NCBI GenBank assembly: GCA_027021085.1
Contig: JALUVB010000047.1
Location: 1 to 15,383 of the forward strand
From: a bacterium
GTDB lineage: Bacteria; CAIJMQ01; JAADFP01
Direction: 5' to 3'
DNA length: 15,383 nucleotides
Below the pieces are notes generated by a model that saw only the letters and a program-made list of their open reading frames with translations, made no database searches and was not told where the DNA came from. The first letter of the stretch is position 1. Each line of letters begins with the position of its first letter. This document shows, in pieces, positions 296-14,598 of this stretch. A program made the translations under genes and the position numbers.

Positions 296-1984
296 TTAAT
301 GCAACACATACTTATAATCTCCAGCATAGTATCCTTTTCTTTTTAATTTTTTATCCTCTACAAGTTTTCTCAACAATCTGCTTGCCTTAAACTTATCCAC
401 TCCCAATAGCTCCCTTACCTGCCTGTTGGTTATCTCTCCATACTCTTTTACATATTGCAAAATCAATTCAGGGTATCTTATTTCATCAATTCCCTTTTCT
501 CTAATATAAGAGAGAGATTCTCCCAGTTTTTTACAAAGGTTGCCACTCAGCCTATAGATTAAGCCTTTTTTAACCCCGCTTTTTTCCAGAAATCCTCTCT
601 TTATCATCTGATTAAGAATCTCTCTTGTTCTGTGTATATCTAATTGCAGGGTTTCTGCTGCGGAAGTAATCGCAATCTCTCTCTGACGCCTCAATACAGA
701 CAAAATTATCAGCTCATCAAGTCCTATCTCCCTTCCTTTCTGCTCATTTTCTTTGATAAATTTTATGAAAGGTTCATCTATTGCCCCGTTTCTGATAATT
801 AGCCTAACATTATGCTCATCTGCTTGAAATGAGGGCTCTGTTTTTCCAGACGCAAGCTGAGTATAAAACATCCTCTTGACACCCATCCCTGCCTTTTCTA
901 TGAGGCCAATTTTTCTTAGTATTTCTGCAAGATGTTTGTTTCTGGGTCTGGAGTCCTGTCGCAGGATATTTTTAGGAGTAATACCAGCAATAAAGCCCCC
1001 TGGGTTGCTGATTTCCATTCTATCAGGATAGTGCTTGATAAATACTGCTCCAGTTTGTGAGTAATCCCTGTGCAAAAGTGCATTGAGTATAGCCTCTCTG
1101 TATGTGAATTCAGGGAAGTCTTTTATTTCAAAATGAAATAGCCCCATCTTCACAGTAGTGAGCCTACCGCGAGCTTCTATATTCCTGGAAATATCATCCA
1201 GAACATAAAGAAGTGCTTTTCTGTAATCCCGACGGAATTCATATTCAATGTCGTTCTTCATATACAAGTAAATCACCTCGTGAGCGGGGATATGTTCCTG
1301 TATAATCTCATCTTTCCCGATAAGGAGAATACCTGCTATGGTGGGATGGCCATTTTTTATGATTCCCGTCTGTTCAAGGAATTCCTTTTCTTTGAGTTTC
1401 AATAATGTGGAGTCTGGCTTTTTGGTTTTTATTATAGATTTCAATCTCTCTATTTCTATCTTACTTAAATCAGAGAGGGTTAATTCAGGTCTTAACTCAG
1501 CAGTTACATCTATTAGTCCCAGTTCTACCATTCTTCTCTGACGCATTGTGCCTGTCATCGGCTTGCACTCTTTACCAATTCTAATCTTTGCTGTTCCGTC
1601 AGTGGTTGTGTGAACTCCCACACCTGATGGAATGTGAACGATTAATAACACTGTATTTAATTCCGGAACAGGAAATTCTTCTACATCTACAAGTATTCTG
1701 GGATCAGTTGATTCATAAATCCGAGATTTTATTTCACTAATGTTATAACCCCAGCATCCTGTAAGTGCCTTTTCTTTTGTCTTCACATTATCCTTTATTC
1801 CAAGAATTAAAGTGCCTCCCTTATTGTTTGCAAAACATACTGCATACTCGGCAAGCATTTTGTACAGTCTTCTTGAATCGGTAATCCATTCCTTGAATTC
1901 TAATACCTCAGATTCCAGTTCTCTTGCCGGTTTTGTTTCTATCGTTTCCAGTAAATTTTTAATCGTCTCTTTTGAGTAAGGCAT
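296..1984 (-). CDS. AlbA_2 (Schlafen-type) ATP-binding protein with C-terminal winged helices (COG2865-like)
   Basis: Residue numbers below count from the upstream GTG at 1990; subtract 2 for the preferred start. The AlbA_2 domain covers about 25-150, with LESEVLEFKEW and the hallmark FANNKGGTLILGI. A GHKL-type ATPase-like segment (HATPase_c_4) follows at about 295-380, with REAILNALLHRDY, the NPGG turn and RNKHLAEILRKIGLIEKAGMG. Two winged helix-turn-helix segments lie at about 425-480 and 505-560. COG2865 proteins are called predicted transcriptional regulators, while AlbA_2 relatives in Schlafen proteins can act on nucleic acids, so either regulator or defence effector is possible. The ATG at 1984 is preferred because GGAGGA (1996-1991) sits 6 nt before it; the GTG at 1990 abuts that site. 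The gene starts 2 nt after the methyltransferase stop, so the two are very likely co-transcribed. Confidence 0.85.
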   Translation of the reverse strand: MPYSKETIKNLLETIETKPARELESEVLEFKEWITDSRRLYKMLAEYAVCFANNKGGTLILGIKDNVKTKEKALTGCWGYNISEIKSRIYESTDPRILVDVEEFPVPELNTVLLIVHIPSGVGVHTTTDGTAKIRIGKECKPMTGTMRQRRMVELGLIDVTAELRPELTLSDLSKIEIERLKSIIKTKKPDSTLLKLKEKEFLEQTGIIKNGHPTIAGILLIGKDEIIQEHIPAHEVIYLYMKNDIEYEFRRDYRKALLYVLDDISRNIEARGRLTTVKMGLFHFEIKDFPEFTYREAILNALLHRDYSQTGAVFIKHYPDRMEISNPGGFIAGITPKNILRQDSRPRNKHLAEILRKIGLIEKAGMGVKRMFYTQLASGKTEPSFQADEHNVRLIIRNGAIDEPFIKFIKENEQKGREIGLDELIILSVLRRQREIAITSAAETLQLDIHRTREILNQMIKRGFLEKSGVKKGLIYRLSGNLCKKLGESLSYIREKGIDEIRYPELILQYVKEYGEITNRQVRELLGVDKFKASRLLRKLVEDKKLKRKGYYAGDYKYVLH

Positions 1985-1986
1985 TC

Positions 1987-4839
1987 TCACTCCTCCAGTG
2001 TATCTGTTACATCTTCAACAATGATACTTTCATTTTTATATTTTATCCATTTATATCTTTCTGCCTTCTCCAGTATAGTAAAGAATATATCCGGTGCCCT
2101 GAGATATTTCCCACCCCATTTGTTGCCGGTGTATTTGCCGATATTAAATTTAAACGCCTTTTTGTGTTTCTCGGTAATGCCTTCGGGATACTCCCAGCCT
2201 TCTTCAAGTAATTTCTTCTGAGGAACAGATACAACTCTGTAAGAATCAGTGTTTAAGGTATCTTTTACCTCCTCAATTTCAATTAGATTCCGGGAAGTCA
2301 ATACATCCTCAAAGGGCTTCTTAAAAAGAACGAATTTGGCATAATTTGAAAGTCCCTCTCCTCTCTGTTTCAGAGGGGCCGAGAAGATAACTATTATTGT
2401 ATTTATGTCAGCCTGAGTAAAACTTCTTTTGGCAGAATTGTCATAGATTGCTTTAATATGGACATTTTCCAGAAGAAACTGCTGAAGGTCTTTTCCGTAA
2501 CCGACATCGAGCCAGGAGTTGGATGTAATAAAACAGAAGGTTCCTTTAGAATTAAGGAGTGAAAGGCCATAAAAATAGAAGTAGATATACAGGTCGCTTT
2601 TCTTATCAAGTTTTTTAGGAAGACGCTTTTCAAAATGAGCCCTGATGGAGGATTCCAGTTTATCTTTGTATATCCTTTTTATTTCATTTGTTACTTTCTC
2701 TTTAGAAATAAGTGGAGGAGCAATCTTTTCCTGTCTCACATAAGGTGGGTTACCAATAACTATGTCAAAACCATTTTTTTCTCCTGAGAAAATCTCAGCA
2801 AAATCAATATCCCAGACAAAAGGTTTATCATGTATTCCCTTTAAAGCCTGTCGTGCGGATTTTACATTCTCAAGTTCTTCTTTGAATTTTTCAATTTCTT
2901 TTTTAATCTTTTCTTTCGGGTCGAATAATTTAGTTTTTCCTTCTTTCTTTTCATCTTTAAAAAACTCTATCTGCTTTGGCGTTTCCTGCATTATCCTTTG
3001 TAGTGATTTTATGCGATTGAAAAGGTTTAATGCTCTGTCGTCAAGGATGGCACGGAATATATTTAACTCCTCCTGTAGAAGCATTGATTCACTTCTAAAC
3101 TTGCGTGAAGGGTCATTATTATAGAACTTGAGTTTCTCGTTCTTAAGATTAGTGAGCTTTCTTTTAAGAGATGGAGATATACTTGATGTTCCAGCTCTTA
3201 TGGCAAGATTTATTCCTCCTATCTCCTGAACGAGGCTATCGCCCTGGCGAATTTTGAAGGAAAGGTTGGGAAGTAATGGCTGGATTCTCAATTGCTCTGG
3301 CTTCAGTTCAGTTTCTACTATGAGTTGTAACCAGAGGCGAAGCTCAGCTACATGAACTGCCCAATCCATTACATCAACGCCGTATAAGGAGCGACCAATA
3401 ATGGATTTCTTGATATCGAAATCGCTCATTTGCCGATTGAGGTGAACATAAGTTCTTTTGTAGAGGTGAGCCAGAATATTAAGCATCCCTACAAGAAACG
3501 AACCGCTGCCACAGGCAGGGTCAACAACGGTAAGTTCATCAAGAAGTAATTCTATCTTTTCCCATAACCTATGTTGAGAAATTTGTTTATCAACCTTCTT
3601 TTTGTCTTCCTCTGTCTTAGCAAATATAAACTCATAGATAAGGGCTTTATTAACATCTAAGTGATTGTGAAAATACTCAACAAGGCTTCGGCGACACATA
3701 AAATCAATTTCTGTTCTGGCAGTATAGAAAATTCCCGCTTCGCCTCTTTCGTCTGCTTCTTCTGAAATATTGACCAAACTTTCATAGACTTTACCTATCA
3801 TCTCAGGGTCAACAGCTACCTCTACTTCCAGCGGCAGTTCTTCTCTTATAGTGAAGTTATATTTATCAAAGAAGGCGAATATCTTCTCGAAAAGAGAGTC
3901 GTTAATTTTAAAGATTTTCTCATCAAGTTTGTTGGGAGTGAAAAGTCCTCCGTTAAGATAAGGGACAAGAGCCAAAGCAGAATTTATGTCTTTGGGGAAA
4001 TAGGGCTTGGGGAAAAACTTGTTGTTAAAAGCTTCAAAGAATAAGACGGACAGCCATTTCTCATAGAAAGAGTCTTTCCCCTGGTTTTCTCTTTTATAGA
4101 CTTGCCAGAAGTAGGTAATAAACCGGGGATTATTGTCCAACCATCTTTTCTTTTGAACGAAATACAGGAACATAATGCGGTTCAGTAATTGAAGGCTATA
4201 GTCATGAGCCCATTTAGTATCGGGGATTTGTTTAAGAAGTAAATTTTTGACTTCGGAAAAGGAGGTTCGGTAGTCATTGAAAAACCGTTTGGTTACTTTC
4301 TCAATGTTGAGAGATTGGGTGAGGGTATTATAAATTCGCACGGGGTCTTGAAGTCCTTCTTCAACAGCAATTTCAGATAGAATCCATTTATCTGTGTAGT
4401 GGGCATCGTGTATATCAAGATTTAGTTTCACCAGCTTCCGCTTCCACACTCCCACATCTTCACGGATTTTCTCTACGAGAACGAAGGTATAATTTTTATA
4501 GTCAGAAGTAATAACAAAGAATGGATATTGAGTTTCTTTTTCAAAATAGAGGGGGAGGTTCCGAATGGTAGGAGAAGAATAGGATTTGAGTTCTACCAGG
4601 AAAATTTGAAATCTTTTCTGGTAGGTGGCGATAGTATAAATTTCTTTTACGATTTCTCTGTCTTTTTCTCTCAAGCCCCAGGCTTCTTTCCCCCGGAAGG
4701 AGGGGTCTAAGGTTTTATAGCCTAAGCCCTGGAAAAGTTGATAGACTTTCTCGGGGCTGTCCATCTGGGGGATATGAGTTTCTATGAAATGTTTTATGTT
4801 CATGATTCCAGTTTCACGGGCTGTCTTGCTATTTGCCAT
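1987..4839 (-). CDS. Eco57I-type N6-adenine DNA methyltransferase, apparently without its C-terminal recognition region
   Basis: This 950-aa protein is predicted to methylate adenine N6 using S-adenosylmethionine. Motif I (VDPACGSGSF) is at 439-448, the catalytic GNPPY is at 696-700, and ITSNSWLDVGYG is at 771-782. A lysine/glutamate-rich, probably coiled segment is at 640-665. KYLRAPDI at 911-918 normally leads into a target-recognition region of a few hundred residues, but the protein ends about 32 residues later in a charged tail (DVTDTLEE). The N-terminal 160 residues contain FLVELKS (E83, K85), reminiscent of a PD-(D/E)xK nuclease strand, unproven. The start is uncertain. ATG 4839 has AGAGG only 1 nt away, and a second ATG at 4803 begins MNIKHFIETHIPQ, which reads like a natural family N-terminus. 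It sits 57 nt after the helicase gene and 2 nt before the AlbA_2 gene. Confidence 0.9.
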   Translation of the reverse strand: MANSKTARETGIMNIKHFIETHIPQMDSPEKVYQLFQGLGYKTLDPSFRGKEAWGLREKDREIVKEIYTIATYQKRFQIFLVELKSYSSPTIRNLPLYFEKETQYPFFVITSDYKNYTFVLVEKIREDVGVWKRKLVKLNLDIHDAHYTDKWILSEIAVEEGLQDPVRIYNTLTQSLNIEKVTKRFFNDYRTSFSEVKNLLLKQIPDTKWAHDYSLQLLNRIMFLYFVQKKRWLDNNPRFITYFWQVYKRENQGKDSFYEKWLSVLFFEAFNNKFFPKPYFPKDINSALALVPYLNGGLFTPNKLDEKIFKINDSLFEKIFAFFDKYNFTIREELPLEVEVAVDPEMIGKVYESLVNISEEADERGEAGIFYTARTEIDFMCRRSLVEYFHNHLDVNKALIYEFIFAKTEEDKKKVDKQISQHRLWEKIELLLDELTVVDPACGSGSFLVGMLNILAHLYKRTYVHLNRQMSDFDIKKSIIGRSLYGVDVMDWAVHVAELRLWLQLIVETELKPEQLRIQPLLPNLSFKIRQGDSLVQEIGGINLAIRAGTSSISPSLKRKLTNLKNEKLKFYNNDPSRKFRSESMLLQEELNIFRAILDDRALNLFNRIKSLQRIMQETPKQIEFFKDEKKEGKTKLFDPKEKIKKEIEKFKEELENVKSARQALKGIHDKPFVWDIDFAEIFSGEKNGFDIVIGNPPYVRQEKIAPPLISKEKVTNEIKRIYKDKLESSIRAHFEKRLPKKLDKKSDLYIYFYFYGLSLLNSKGTFCFITSNSWLDVGYGKDLQQFLLENVHIKAIYDNSAKRSFTQADINTIIVIFSAPLKQRGEGLSNYAKFVLFKKPFEDVLTSRNLIEIEEVKDTLNTDSYRVVSVPQKKLLEEGWEYPEGITEKHKKAFKFNIGKYTGNKWGGKYLRAPDIFFTILEKAERYKWIKYKNESIIVEDVTDTLEE
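1991..1996 (-). promoter_or_regulatory. Ribosome binding site that decides the AlbA_2 gene start
   Basis: GGAGGA lies in the last codons (Leu-Glu-Glu) of the methyltransferase gene. Its spacing is 6 nt to the ATG at 1984 and 0 nt to the GTG at 1990, which favours the ATG. The site is covered by ribosomes finishing the upstream gene, so expression of the two proteins may be coupled. Confidence 0.7.
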
Positions 4840-4845
4840 ACCTCT

Positions 4846-4893
4846 AAATCTTTAAATCTTTCAATCTTTAATCTTACCATTTCCAATCTTTTT
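4846..4893. repeat. Short degenerate tandem repeat of AATCTT in the helicase-methyltransferase gap
   Basis: AATCTT begins at 4847, 4855, 4863, 4870 and 4885 on the plus strand, mostly at 7-8 nt spacing. It fills nearly the whole 57-nt gap. On the coding strand this reads as repeated AAGATT. It is not a hairpin and contains no obvious promoter. A similar run with the same 8-nt period lies inside the helicase gene at 5457-5496. Confidence 0.6.
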
Positions 4894-4896
4894 CCC

Positions 4897-7800
4897 CTAT
4901 GAAATAAAGTCTACACAGATAAGTTTCAATTTTCTTTCGTCAAACTTCACTGCTTCCTGTTCTTCATTCAAAGGTTTTCCCTGCAAAAAACTATCGAGTT
5001 CTGAAACTAAAATATTCCAGTTTTTGGAACGCTTGTAGTTTTTCCAGATTTTTCTCAGGGTTCGCATTCTTAGCTTGGTGAAAGCAATATTATGTAGATT
5101 AGCAATCATAACGGTAATTCTCTCTCGCCAGGGGTCATTCTCTTCAATGTAATTTTCTTTGATGAAATCAAGCTCGTCCCTTAAATCTCGCAGGGTTTTT
5201 TCCATTCGTCCGACCGCTGTACGAATCTGTGTAGCAATTAATCCTTCGGAAAAGAATTTCTTTATCTCTTCTCTTACCTTATGATGGATCTCAAATACAT
5301 CTAAGTCTTCAGGAATAACTCTCGGTTCATCTTCTTTACAGGATATAAATTTTAGTATCTCTGTTTTGTTGGTAATGAATCTATTATTCACCACATCATA
5401 TAAAAACCAGAGATGATAATCTTCCTTATACTTGTAATAAAAGAAGATTCCTTTAAAATCTTTTGACTCTTTGAATCTTGTAATCTTCCAATCTCTTTTC
5501 AATCCGCTCTGTATTCCATGAGGGAGAGATTCGCAGAATTCTTTTAATTTTTCAAGGCCGAAGTCTTTGAGAGGCTGCCAGAATAGTTCCCCACCTCCAA
5601 ACTGCTCTTCCTCAAGTTCTTTGAGTATCTGCTCTTTTTTGTCCTTTGCCTCTCTTAAACCCCGAATGATACCGAATACCTTAGGATTGATTGTTTCTCC
5701 TAATACCGAGGCATCAAGCCCTATGGTTTCATTTATCATTTCTATTTTCCCCTGCAATATCTTTACCAATTCCAGAAGGCTTTCCAACTCCTCCTCGGGA
5801 TAGAAATTGTAAATAAAAATTACATCATATGGAGAGCCTATGCGGTCGATTCTGCCGGCTCGTTGAATCATTCTTACCGGATTCCAGTGAAGGTCATAGT
5901 TTATAACTATCCTTGCCTTTTGAAGATTCTGCCCTTCAGAGAGAATATCTGTAGATAAAAGTACATCGGTATCTGCATTGAGGAATCCATCAACAACTTC
6001 CTTTCTTCTCCGGGTTGAAAAACTACCTGTTATTTTGGCTATTTTTCCATTAAATTTAGCAGAAAAATCCTTGTCCTCATTAAGGGCTTCATAAAGATAG
6101 TCAATTGTATCGGCGTAAAAGGAGAAGAGAAGAACCTTCCCTTTATCTTTAAACTCTATTAGTTTCTTCTTTAGTTCTTTGAGTTTAGCATCCTGGGTTC
6201 TATCTATGGGGTCTACAAGTTTCTTTATCTCTTTAAATATCTCTATATCCTTGTCCAGGTCCTCGTAAAATTTTTCAAGATTAAAATCTGAAAGATTGAC
6301 AGATTCAAGATTCTTTTTCAGTTCTTTTATAAGATAACCTGAATCTCCTGCCTGCGCCGATGCTTCGGCAGGCAGGTGTGCTTCTTCTTCAAGGTAAGCG
6401 AGATATTTATTGTAGAACTTCTTCCTTAGAATCTTACCTTCTTTGAATACCTCTTTGAAAGTGGAGAGAAAATCTATTTGTGTTTGAATACTCTTTCTAA
6501 ATGCCTCTACGCTGCTTTCTAACCGCTTTAAGAGAAGGGTTTGCAAAATACCACCCAAAGCCTTCATCCTTCCCAGTTCCATCTCGTCTTTCTTTCCCAC
6601 GACTCGATATTCCTCAAGTCGGTAATAGGCAAGATTCAATTCCTTCTCTATCTTTTCTGCTATCTGGTAATAAAGACCCTGGTAGGTTTCATCAAGGCTA
6701 TAGTTTATCTCAGAAAGTTCTCTTTCAGGAAATTCTATTCTTACCCACTCGCCTTTTTCATTTTTATACTTTGCGTCTGGATAGTTATCTTTTATATACT
6801 GCCTTGTTCTACGAATAGAGATGATTTGCAGAATATCTGCTAACTGGGAAATGTTTCCTTTATCAGCTTTCTTAAATTGTTTTTCCAGGTCAAAAACACC
6901 TTCTTTGAAGAAAATTCTTTTATTGTTTTGTGCCAACAGCATTAATTGAAAATAGAGATCCCAGTGGGTATTATTCATTGGGGTAGCAGTCAAGAGTAGG
7001 ATTTTGGGTTTAAGTCTTTTACCCGCTTTCTCTATAAGTGTAAACAAACTCTCATATCGATTGGAGAAAGGATTTCTAAAATTGTGAGATTCATCAACAA
7101 CGATGAGGGCTATATCCTCAAGGTTGAAATTTAGTTTTTTCTCCAATTCCGTAAAATCAAAATCTTCACGACCGAGTTCTTCCTGATGAATAATATTCTC
7201 AGATAGGCCAATATCTTTTAGCGCAGGTCTCCATAAAGGCTCATCTACACTGGCAGGGCATACGACAAGAAATCTTTTGCGTCTGTAGAAGCCAAAATCT
7301 TCGATAACTTTCTTAGCAATCCAAGTTTTTCCCAAGCCTACAGAATCAGCAATTAAAACACCATTATAGGTTTTAAGCCTGGAATAAATTCGCTTGACAG
7401 CGTCTTCTTGAAAATTAGCAAGGTCCACCTCGCTTTCGGGAAGAATTTCCGGAGATTCATACTGAAATGAGATATCTTCCTTCTGAAGTTCGTAAAGTGA
7501 TTTTATGAAGATATAATAGGGTGGGTATTCCTTTGTGCCAAATTTCGACTCATCAAGAGTTTTTATCAGGTCCTTTTTGAAATCCCGGGACTGTTCCCAA
7601 AATTTTTCAAACCACTCCTCTCTTATATATCTTGCATGTGCTTCGTCCAACACTGCATTGAGTTCTGTGTTGGAGGTAAAACCGGAGTAGGTGAAATTGC
7701 TTGAACCAATAATAGCCAGTTTATCAAAAATGTAAACTTTACCATGAAGAAAACCTTTATCGTAAAGTCTAACTTTCCAATCGGGATTTTGCAGGAGTTG

Positions 7801-8112
7801 GATTAGTGATACAACTATTTCCTTGTTCTCTTTTTCAAAGACCTCTTCTTCTAAATCTTCCCGGAATTTCTTCTTGTACAGTTCTTCTGGCTGAAAAATG
7901 TCGGGCTGTTTTTCCTCTATCTGGGGAGAACATCCTATTAGTAACCTAAACTTATAGACATCGTGCAATGCTTCTTTTATAAGTTGAAACCCTGCTATAT
8001 TGAAGTAAGCACTGGCTATATCTAAAGATTTCTGTTCTCTAAGTACTTTATTTAATTCTTCAAAAAGTTTGAGCTTGCTATTATCTATAATTAGATTTTC
8101 GGGTCTATACAT
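4897..8112 (-). CDS. Phospholipase-D-family nuclease fused to SNF2/DEAD-like helicase, motor and nuclease of a restriction system
   Basis: This 1071-aa protein joins two activities. Residues about 1-190 form a PLD-type domain with a single HKD motif (H123, K125, D130, then GSSN at 136-139), so an active nuclease would need a dimer, as in BfiI-like enzymes. Residues about 230-770 form an SF2/SNF2 helicase: motif I SVGLGKT (257-263), motif II VDESH (339-343), motif III TATP (375-378), and motifs V-VI through SEGQNLQKA to QRAGRIDRIGS (725-760). The C-terminal 300 residues are mostly helical and unassigned. PLD nucleases paired with helicases are known from the NgoAVII and CglI restriction systems, and a methyltransferase follows here. 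Two repeat-derived stretches sit in non-catalytic parts (residues 580-592 and 875-887). The ATG at 8112 has no good ribosome binding site of its own and overlaps the mini-ORF at 8105-8152 by 8 nt. Confidence 0.92.
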   Translation of the reverse strand: MYRPENLIIDNSKLKLFEELNKVLREQKSLDIASAYFNIAGFQLIKEALHDVYKFRLLIGCSPQIEEKQPDIFQPEELYKKKFREDLEEEVFEKENKEIVVSLIQLLQNPDWKVRLYDKGFLHGKVYIFDKLAIIGSSNFTYSGFTSNTELNAVLDEAHARYIREEWFEKFWEQSRDFKKDLIKTLDESKFGTKEYPPYYIFIKSLYELQKEDISFQYESPEILPESEVDLANFQEDAVKRIYSRLKTYNGVLIADSVGLGKTWIAKKVIEDFGFYRRKRFLVVCPASVDEPLWRPALKDIGLSENIIHQEELGREDFDFTELEKKLNFNLEDIALIVVDESHNFRNPFSNRYESLFTLIEKAGKRLKPKILLLTATPMNNTHWDLYFQLMLLAQNNKRIFFKEGVFDLEKQFKKADKGNISQLADILQIISIRRTRQYIKDNYPDAKYKNEKGEWVRIEFPERELSEINYSLDETYQGLYYQIAEKIEKELNLAYYRLEEYRVVGKKDEMELGRMKALGGILQTLLLKRLESSVEAFRKSIQTQIDFLSTFKEVFKEGKILRKKFYNKYLAYLEEEAHLPAEASAQAGDSGYLIKELKKNLESVNLSDFNLEKFYEDLDKDIEIFKEIKKLVDPIDRTQDAKLKELKKKLIEFKDKGKVLLFSFYADTIDYLYEALNEDKDFSAKFNGKIAKITGSFSTRRRKEVVDGFLNADTDVLLSTDILSEGQNLQKARIVINYDLHWNPVRMIQRAGRIDRIGSPYDVIFIYNFYPEEELESLLELVKILQGKIEMINETIGLDASVLGETINPKVFGIIRGLREAKDKKEQILKELEEEQFGGGELFWQPLKDFGLEKLKEFCESLPHGIQSGLKRDWKITRFKESKDFKGIFFYYKYKEDYHLWFLYDVVNNRFITNKTEILKFISCKEDEPRVIPEDLDVFEIHHKVREEIKKFFSEGLIATQIRTAVGRMEKTLRDLRDELDFIKENYIEENDPWRERITVMIANLHNIAFTKLRMRTLRKIWKNYKRSKNWNILVSELDSFLQGKPLNEEQEAVKFDERKLKLICVDFIS
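5455..5499. repeat. AATCTT-type repeat inside the helicase coding sequence
   Basis: AATCT words begin at 5457, 5474, 5482 and 5490; the last three have the 8-nt period also seen in the intergenic run at 4846-4893. On the coding strand it encodes DWKITRFKESKDFK (about residues 874-887). It keeps the reading frame. A repeat-derived insertion is possible, but a chance run of Lys/Ile/Phe codons in AT-rich DNA would look similar. Confidence 0.35.
6347..6376. repeat. Palindromic element inserted in frame in the helicase gene
   Basis: The 30-nt element has perfect 9-nt arms, CCTGCCTGC (6347-6355) and GCAGGCAGG (6368-6376). An alternative fold pairs CCGA (6357-6360) with TCGG (6365-6368) around a TGCT loop. 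Its GC content is far above the surrounding gene. It encodes LPAEASAQAG (residues 580-589), a low-complexity peptide in the spacer between the two helicase lobes. Similar 'PAEASAQAG' stretches are, to my recollection, frequent interspersed palindromes in candidate-phylum genomes. Confidence 0.75.
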
Positions 8113-12387: not shown

Positions 12388-14067
12388 CTACATCCTCTCT
12401 TTTGGCTTTACTCCCAATATCTTTAATCCCGAAGCAATAACCCGCCTGGTTATCGTACAGAGAGCAAGACGGGCTTCCATGAGGGACTCTTCTTCTCCCA
12501 GCACACGCTGGGTGTCGTAAAATTTGTGGAAGGAGGTGGCTAACTCCTGGAGGTATCCTGTGATGCGGTGAGGTTCCAGTGCTTCTGCCGCATTCTCCAG
12601 TACCCAGGGATAGAGGGCAAGTTTTCTTAATACTTCTTTTTCTTCCGGAGCCTGGAGCAGCTCCCAGGCAGGGGAAAGCGAGTCCTCTTTCCGTTCTGCT
12701 TTGTTAAATATGCTCCTTATGCGTGCGTGGGCATACTGCACGTAGTAAACGGGGTTTTCCGGAGCATCCTTTTTTGCCAGATCAATGTCAAATTCCAGCT
12801 GGGTGTCGGGGCGGCGGGTGAGAAATATGAAGTGGCATACATCTGAGCCAACTTCTTCTATGAGGTCTTTCAGGGATAGGAATTTACCGCCCCGGGTGGA
12901 AAGAGGGATTTTTTCTCCACCCTTAATCAGGCTTACCATTTGCACTAAAATCACTTTCAGATTTTCTGCCGGGAGTCCCAGGAACTGCAGGGCGGATTTG
13001 AGCCTTTTCACGTATCCGTGATGGTCTGCACCCCAGATATCAACTATTATTTCGTATCCTTTCCTGAATTTCTCCCGGTGGTAAGCAATATCAGAGGCGA
13101 GGTAAGTAGGCCTGCCGTCTTTTCTTATTACTACCCTGTCTTTCTCATCGCCTAAGCGGGTGGAGGCTAACCACCATGCCCCGTCTTTTTCGTAAATAGC
13201 GCCTTTGGTTTTTAGTTCTTCAATGGCTTCTATCACTTTTCCCTGCTGGTAGAGGGTGTTTTCAAAGGTGTAGGAGTCTATTTCTACCTCGAAGCTCTTT
13301 AAATCTTCTTTTATTTCTTTGAGGAGTTTCTCTGCGGCGAATTGCCCCAGGAAATTAGCATCATCCTTTTTCTCTTTTAGTTGAGTGAAATACTTTTCTG
13401 CCATATTTTTGAGGTATTCGCCTTTATAATGGTCTTCGCCCCACTCTATTTTTTCTCCTTCCATCTCTTTCAGGCGCAGGGCAAGAGATTCTCCCAGGAG
13501 TGCTATCTGTCTTCCCACGTTATTTACGTAGTATTCGCTTTCTACCTGGTAGCCTACTTTTCTCAGCAGGTGAGCGAGGGCGGAGCCCAGGGAGGCTCCC
13601 CTGCCATGTCCCACGTGGAGGGGGCCGGTGGGATTGGCACTTACAAATTCTACCTGCACTTTTTTCCCTTGCCCTGTGTTGAGGGAGGGAAAGGAGTCGC
13701 CCTGCCGCATGATTTCCCGGGCTACCTTGTACAGAGAGGAGGGAGTAAGGCTAAAATTCAGGTAGCCGCCTGCGGCTTCTACGGTTATCTCCTGCTCGGG
13801 AAGGGATATTTCTTTCTGGATGGTCTGGCTGGCTTCCTGGGGGGGGATGGAATTAAGGGAAGAGATTAAAAAGGGCAGATTGCTGGTGAAGTCGCCTTTT
13901 CCCTTTAGCCGGGTGGTCTGGAGCGGGGGTAGGGAGGAAGGAATATCCCATCCTCTGTCTTTAAGCTTCTCTAATGTCCTCTTTAATGCTTCCTCTATTT
14001 TCTTTTCCACTCGCCAAGGAGGTGAATTTTTCCTGGGGTGCATCTCCCCAGAGTCTTTCCAGGTCAT
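12388..14067 (-). CDS. argS: Arginyl-tRNA synthetase
   Basis: This class I synthetase charges tRNA-Arg. The 559-aa protein has an N-terminal recognition domain with LKGKGDFTSNLPF (about 54-66). The HIGH motif is HVGH (151-154) within FVSANPTGPLHVGHGRG. The second signature is a KMSKS-like KIPLSTRGGKF (386-396). The C-terminal DALR anticodon domain begins near YYVQYAHARIRSIF. The start at ATG 14067 is supported by GAGGG 6 nt upstream, but it makes argS overlap rsfS by 107 nt. Later in-frame starts exist: ATG at 14043, which has GGGGAG directly against it, and the GTG for V20, after which EKKIEEALKRTLEKL resembles a typical family N-terminus. Two nt separate its stop from the next gene. Confidence 0.97.
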   Translation of the reverse strand: MTWKDSGEMHPRKNSPPWRVEKKIEEALKRTLEKLKDRGWDIPSSLPPLQTTRLKGKGDFTSNLPFLISSLNSIPPQEASQTIQKEISLPEQEITVEAAGGYLNFSLTPSSLYKVAREIMRQGDSFPSLNTGQGKKVQVEFVSANPTGPLHVGHGRGASLGSALAHLLRKVGYQVESEYYVNNVGRQIALLGESLALRLKEMEGEKIEWGEDHYKGEYLKNMAEKYFTQLKEKKDDANFLGQFAAEKLLKEIKEDLKSFEVEIDSYTFENTLYQQGKVIEAIEELKTKGAIYEKDGAWWLASTRLGDEKDRVVIRKDGRPTYLASDIAYHREKFRKGYEIIVDIWGADHHGYVKRLKSALQFLGLPAENLKVILVQMVSLIKGGEKIPLSTRGGKFLSLKDLIEEVGSDVCHFIFLTRRPDTQLEFDIDLAKKDAPENPVYYVQYAHARIRSIFNKAERKEDSLSPAWELLQAPEEKEVLRKLALYPWVLENAAEALEPHRITGYLQELATSFHKFYDTQRVLGEEESLMEARLALCTITRRVIASGLKILGVKPKERM

Positions 14068-14362
14068 AATATTCCCTCAACTTCTGTGTGAAGATATGAA
14101 CTAAAACTCCTCCAAAGTCCATCAGAATCCATTGGCCTTCCTCGTATCCTTCTATGTGATGGAGTGCAATTCCTTGTTTTCCTTCTATTTCCTCTTTGAC
14201 TGCATCGCATAGGCTGCGGTTGTGTATCTCGGTTTCTCCGGTAACAATGACAAAATAGTCACAAATTATACTAATGCCTTCCAGGTTTATAACTATTACA
14301 TCCCCGCCTTTTTTATCCCAGCAGAGGCGGGCAATATCCCGGCTTAATTTCTGAAAGTCTAT
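13961..14362 (-). CDS. rsfS: Ribosomal silencing factor RsfS (YbeB/Iojap), apparent ATA start
   Basis: RsfS binds ribosomal protein uL14 on the large subunit and blocks subunit joining when nutrients are low. The translated frame gives 133 codons with clear family features: ICDYFVIVTGETEIHNRSL, HHIEGYEEGQWILMDFGGV, VHIFTQKLREYYDLERLWGD. The first residues, [ATA]-DFQKLSRDIARLCWDKKG, align with the normal start 'MDFQKL'. There is no ATG, GTG or TTG between the in-frame stop just upstream and the conserved core, so the gene must begin at ATA (14362-14360), at another ATA at 14368, or be affected by a sequence error. AGGAGG lies 10 nt upstream of the ATA, and the stop of the previous gene is 2 nt away, both as expected of a real start. 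The last 24 residues or so extend past the usual family end and overlap argS. Confidence 0.9.
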   Translation of the reverse strand: MDFQKLSRDIARLCWDKKGGDVIVINLEGISIICDYFVIVTGETEIHNRSLCDAVKEEIEGKQGIALHHIEGYEEGQWILMDFGGVLVHIFTQKLREYYDLERLWGDAPQEKFTSLASGKENRGSIKEDIREA

Positions 14363-14364
14363 TT

Positions 14365-14598
14365 TTATTCTTCCTCCTTAATCTCTGCGAGCAATTTCCT
14401 GGCCAAAGAGGCATCTTCTTCTTTTACCAGGATTCTAACTTCCGCCAACCCGTTTATAGTAAAGGGATAAACTGAAGAAGGCACCTGGCTCACAAGAATA
14501 CAAGAAATCCCGTTATTCTCCAGCATATTTTTTATTAATTGGGCTTCTATTGCATCACCGGCAGTAAATATTTTAACCGTGTTACTTTTTATATGCAC
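14365..14598 (-). CDS. DUF2007 family small protein
   Basis: This 77-aa protein matches the DUF2007 ('putative signal transducing protein') pattern: VKIFTAGDAIEAQLIKNMLENNGI at the N-terminus (key residues T12, A17-L21, L26), then a central hydrophobic strand and LVKEEDASLARKLLAEI at the end. The fold is ferredoxin-like and resembles PII-type or ACT-like small domains; no biochemical role is established. The GTG start at 14598 is forced, since a TAA directly precedes it in frame and no other start codon lies before the conserved region. There is no Shine-Dalgarno sequence, and a -10-like TAGAAT ends 7 nt upstream, so the mRNA may be leaderless. It leads the rsfS-argS-lpd-lipB-yihY-lipA run. 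Confidence 0.85.
   Translation of the reverse strand: MHIKSNTVKIFTAGDAIEAQLIKNMLENNGISCILVSQVPSSVYPFTINGLAEVRILVKEEDASLARKLLAEIKEEE
14373..14378 (-). promoter_or_regulatory. Ribosome binding site for rsfS
   Basis: AGGAGG is the strongest Shine-Dalgarno match in this operon. It points to the ATA at 14362 (10 nt) or 14368 (4 nt), where no normal start codon exists. The same 10-nt spacing is seen for the mini-ORF at 8152, which has a normal ATG. Confidence 0.75.

Follow-up and report, generated by a model that had tools for sequence, protein, structure and literature searches.

Which codon starts rsfS when the gene offers no ATG, GTG or TTG at the expected place? RsfS prevents the 50S subunit from joining the 30S subunit and keeps the ribosome halves apart. 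UUG is a standard alternative start codon, while AUA is not. Natural AUA, AUC and AUU starts (AUH) are known in few bacterial genes, infC foremost, and autoregulation of E. coli infC by its own product is established. A sequence-only reading of the window (the whole 15,383-nt stretch of DNA analyzed here) had proposed an ATA start for rsfS and had drawn the parallel with infC.

The rsfS frame and its putative start codon

The rsfS coding sequence occupies 13961-14362 on the minus strand (133 aa). Its product matches the RsfS family PF02410 (E 6e-30; 103.8 bits, cut-off 21.6; profile positions 2-98 of 98). The domain translated from the ATA frame is complete and is the sole RsfS domain detected in the genome. 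By homology to the S. aureus structures 6sj5 and 6sj6, the protein would bind uL14 on the 50S subunit and block subunit joining.

The sense strand reads GAGATTAAGGAGGAAGAATAA followed by AA ATA GAC TTT CAG AAA TTA. The upstream in-frame stop is a TAA at 14380-14378, which overlaps the Shine-Dalgarno (SD) sequence AAGGAGG (14379-14373, minus strand) and is followed by GGA GGA AGA ATA AAA ATA GAC. The ATA at 14362-14360 lies 10 nt downstream of this SD and 2 nt past the TAA (14367-14365) of the gene directly upstream, a DUF2007 gene with a GTG start (14365-14598, minus strand; PF09413, 53.2 bits). Both distances are those given by the sequence-only reading. Its claim that no canonical codon precedes the conserved core also holds, and extends further: ATG, GTG and TTG are absent from the in-frame upstream stop to about codon 80. 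The earliest canonical codon in the frame, 80 codons in, is the ATG near 14122; a start there would leave 53 residues.

Alignment pairs position 13 of the predicted protein with the same position in BH1328 (2o5a), and position 15 with its equally numbered counterpart in S. aureus RsfS (6sj5, 6sj6). Since the residue numbering agrees with these solved RsfS proteins, the ATA is most probably codon 1, where the earlier reading had placed it from family likeness. An N-terminal extension is excluded by the in-frame TAA at 14380-14378. Initiation at this ATA is strongly inferred. The earlier reading missed a second in-frame ATA at 14368-14366, which would add two residues and is conserved in the same-genus genome. 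It lies just 4 nt from AAGGAGG, against 10 nt for the proposed start, and is missing in a genome of the same family (G002, which reads AGA AAA ATA ATC). Initiation at this second codon is therefore quite improbable.

No stable mRNA structure was found at the rsfS start (z = 0.61), and no known RNA elements were found in the window. The listed ATG of argS (14067) gives an overlap of about 107 nt with the 3′ part of rsfS (13961-14067, minus strand); argS may begin further downstream. Besides, the minus strand at 296-8112 carries a likely defence or restriction cluster, including a Schlafen AlbA_2/RecG-C protein, an Eco57I-type methyltransferase (PADLOC type IIG) and a PLD-SNF2 helicase (PADLOC HKD+Snf2, DrmD-like).

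Conservation of the start in the genus and phylum

The same-genus genome G001 is an independently assembled MAG, 'Caldisericota bacterium M_MaxBin.041' (JAADFP010000055.1). Its RsfS protein is 94% identical to that of the window, and the SD, the spacer and the ATA are all identical. The surrounding DNA has diverged. On the 3′ side of the ATA, 32 bases differ between the two genomes, 20 of them at third codon positions of the rsfS frame, and 19 of the 26 changed rsfS codons are synonymous. On the 5′ side of the junction, 23 bases differ, 16 of them at third positions of the DUF2007 frame. In other words, the frame under selection switches from DUF2007 to rsfS at the TAA/ATA junction.

The dull alternative named earlier was a polymorphism of the start codon or an error of assembly, to which misread bases in an ATG can be added, and the assembly of the window genome is indeed in 307 contigs. 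However, the rsfS ATA is not an error, because the same-genus genome carries the identical codon amid many substitutions, and AUA, AUC or AUU is found throughout the phylum; we regard this explanation as hardly conceivable. A usable ATG, GTG or TTG is absent from the rsfS initiation window in 7/7 phylum genomes. The putative starts after an SD are AUA in G000, G001 and G002, and AUC or AUU in G003-G006. In G002, an in-frame ATG and a TTG exist upstream of the SD, and in G005 a TTG lies about nine codons inside the protein; these are implausible as starts. Thus, the situation is the opposite of a lone exception among ATG-starting relatives, which the sequence-only reading had held up as the outcome that would speak against an ATA start.

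The DUF2007 gene and rsfS are nearly contiguous, with an SD-like element before the stop, and RsfS could in principle be made as a fusion by programmed frameshifting out of DUF2007. By eye, no slippery heptamer precedes the TAA in GAGATTAAGGAGGAAGAATAA. Furthermore, in family f2 the stretch upstream of rsfS is not conserved, yet rsfS there still has no canonical start. With the slippery site absent and the arrangement not conserved, this very improbable explanation was rejected.

Recurrence and gene specificity of non-canonical rsfS starts

Loci of rsfS were gathered from diverse families, one further family, two larger orders and one small order. The genomes compared are mostly MAGs, and the start calls are based on position and SD. 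Possible starts were measured by their distance from the aspartate of the conserved KKxxD motif, and a locus was counted as having no canonical start when it had no ATG, GTG or TTG 12-60 codons upstream of this aspartate. In the set collected blind to the start codon, 12/153 rsfS loci had no canonical start (five in the phylum, the other seven each in a different family outside it). In the whole set the count was 34/223 distinct loci, in 10/118 clusters (60% identity); only the former estimates frequency, because later searches targeted lineages already found. One locus (L026), whose open frame extends far upstream, was excluded from the strict set. Among the clusters without a canonical start that have an SD of at least 5 bases, 8/9 carry an AUH codon within the SD window, whereas codon use predicts 2.3 (simulated P ~5e-5).

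With clusters weighted, AUH codons peak at 20 codons before the aspartate (14.0%, against 0% at 19), where TTG (13.0%) and ATG (9.3%) also peak; by itself this AUH peak is weak proof, because AUH is as common at 15, in the first helix, where isoleucine is ordinary. AUA starts are generally regarded as very rare, but AUH starts are not rare in this gene. Canonical rsfS starts are also common, as AUG, GUG and UUG, and a weak start is not obligatory. Among the canonical-start genes of the first 162-locus set, the automatic pick was TTG in 58/144, a rough figure because some of these loci may hide AUH starts.

Specific lineages retain particular codons. AUU persists in eight genomes of family f22 although the codons that follow vary. 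In the order of G067, most members of three families (f62, f212, f213) carry AUC, with AUA instead in one genus; some members have an additional ATG two codons upstream, and ATG is the codon in a single genus of f214. Families in the order of G127 differ at the aligned position, with AUA, UUA, GUA, CUA, GUC, UUG or AUG, in most cases preceded by an SD. UUA stands at the rsfS start position in L286, L298, L299, L303 and L313, GUA in L309, AUC or GUA in L287 and L305, CUA in L310 and GUC in L290 and L296. The UUA, GUA, CUA and GUC frames have a stop just upstream, an SD before the codon and usually a conserved Glu-Ser after it. The doubly mismatched UUA, GUA and CUA, together with GUC, would be exceptional as natural starts in this order.

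Control genes were compared in 30 genomes picked to include ones with non-canonical rsfS. A canonical start was missing in 0/28 frr, 0/29 smpB and 14/30 infC genes; since the genomes were chosen by rsfS status, these counts show gene specificity and not frequency. TTG served as the start in 3/57 of the frr and smpB controls, to be set beside the 58/144 for rsfS. When clusters were compared with the controls only, the Fisher test gave a modest P = 0.03. Judged from these predicted starts, the non-canonical habit is specific to the rsfS gene. In about 119 long ORFs (20 contigs and the window), a rough screen found a long SD with AUA and no canonical start in rsfS only. The infC parallel is thereby borne out across many diverse bacteria, where infC and rsfS lack canonical starts and frr and smpB of the same genomes never do. 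Inside this phylum, a common infC/rsfS habit fails, because infC has a GTG or TTG available there.

The 14 infC genes without ATG, GTG or TTG (L200, L201, L209, L210, L212, L213, L216, L218-L222, L224, L225) mostly have ATA, ATT or ATC behind an SD, and thereby widen the habit known for infC to many lineages. In family f2 (L035, L036, L037), infC has only a TTG and no clear SD; this TTG is preceded by TAA ATC/ATT immediately after the upstream gene, and the start is uncertain. A general relaxation of start codons in this genome was also considered and rejected, as G000 has ATG for frr, ATG for smpB and an available GTG for infC, and the rough ORF screen singled out rsfS.

Could the AUA be a real start whose weakness is unselected and has no regulatory role? 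The need for RsfS might be small, and start mutations would therefore be tolerated, with the strong SD covering the loss. Consistent with this, rsfS also has UUG, GUG and AUG starts, and the codon drifts among AUA, AUC, AUU, UUA, GUA and GUC within orders. However, AUU is kept across f22 and AUC across most of an order with AUG one mutation away, and frr and smpB, which are also small translation-factor genes, show no such starts. Unselected drift with SD compensation thus appears to be the main rival, weakened by lineage conservation and clean controls, and we judge it rather unlikely.

A possible connection with IF3

We consider it probable that the AUA at 14362-14360 is a genuine rsfS start, disfavored by IF3 and recurrently kept as in infC, which holds RsfS scarce. 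Comparison among predicted starts has shown which codon it is, that the lineage conserves it, that it recurs elsewhere and that the habit is particular to the gene. The strong, well-spaced AAGGAGG would recruit the 30S subunit to rsfS, where the initiator fMet-tRNA (anticodon CAU) would pair with AUA with a third-base mismatch. The SD may offset part of the loss from this mismatch. Proofreading by IF3, which is encoded in the genome, would disfavor the AUA/CAU pair, and RsfS would therefore be made at only part of the rate that AUG allows. Ribosomes terminating on DUF2007 two bases upstream may boost rsfS initiation; such coupling is not a general cause, because family f2 has another sequence upstream. 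By analogy, RsfS synthesis would be low and would fall with IF3 activity.

Work on other genes suggests both the low yield and the IF3 discrimination at AUA. In S. aureus, AUA starts infC and ccpN and AUU starts cvfC1, all with extended SDs, and reporters of such non-AUG starts gave about 10-30% of AUG expression (PMC13009471). In a reconstituted system, IF3 lowered the product from an AUU/CAU pair (PMC10158994). Streptomyces sigR, with a GUC start, is reported to be repressed by IF3 (PMC5472188). That IF3 and RsfS are linked in their regulation is conjecture.

The likeness to infC is closest: both genes encode a subunit anti-association factor and have a conserved IF3-disfavored start after a strong SD. 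In contrast to E. coli infC, which is controlled by its own product, any IF3 control of rsfS would act in trans. The ccpN and cvfC1 genes share with the window rsfS a conserved non-AUG start and an extended SD. However, they have other functions and were described within Staphylococci (ccpN also in B. subtilis), and their starts are proven by profiling, whereas the AUA of rsfS is a putative start identified by comparison. Streptomyces sigR resembles rsfS in using a weak start for control, and L290 and L296 likewise have GUC at the aligned position; sigR differs in encoding a sigma factor and in its GUC start. The E. coli ortholog has a weak though permitted UUG instead of AUA; in K-12, the TTG follows AGGGGG, and PMC10917681 gives the same start codon. 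Its expression is highest in exponential phase (PMC10917681). Taken alone, this peak of a UUG-started gene is no sign of an IF3 switch.

No report of AUH starts for rsfS was found in the open-access literature, and the novelty is provisional because the search covered open-access papers only. A wider generalization is possible, and we offer it tentatively: rsfS may stand beside infC as a second class, spread across bacteria, in which IF3-disfavored starts have been repeatedly fixed. This would tie both anti-association factors, IF3 on the 30S and RsfS on the 50S subunit, to initiation fidelity or free IF3, and UUA, GUA, CUA and GUC would serve as natural starts in one order.

Gene callers that accept only ATG, GTG and TTG can be expected to overlook rsfS in such genomes or to cut it short, and therefore reported rsfS absences and starts may need revision. 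The weak rsfS start also offers a direct genetic test of RsfS control. That a further gene found in nearly all bacteria shows the AUH habit, and that its product too is an anti-association factor, suggests initiation as the step that limits RsfS dosage.
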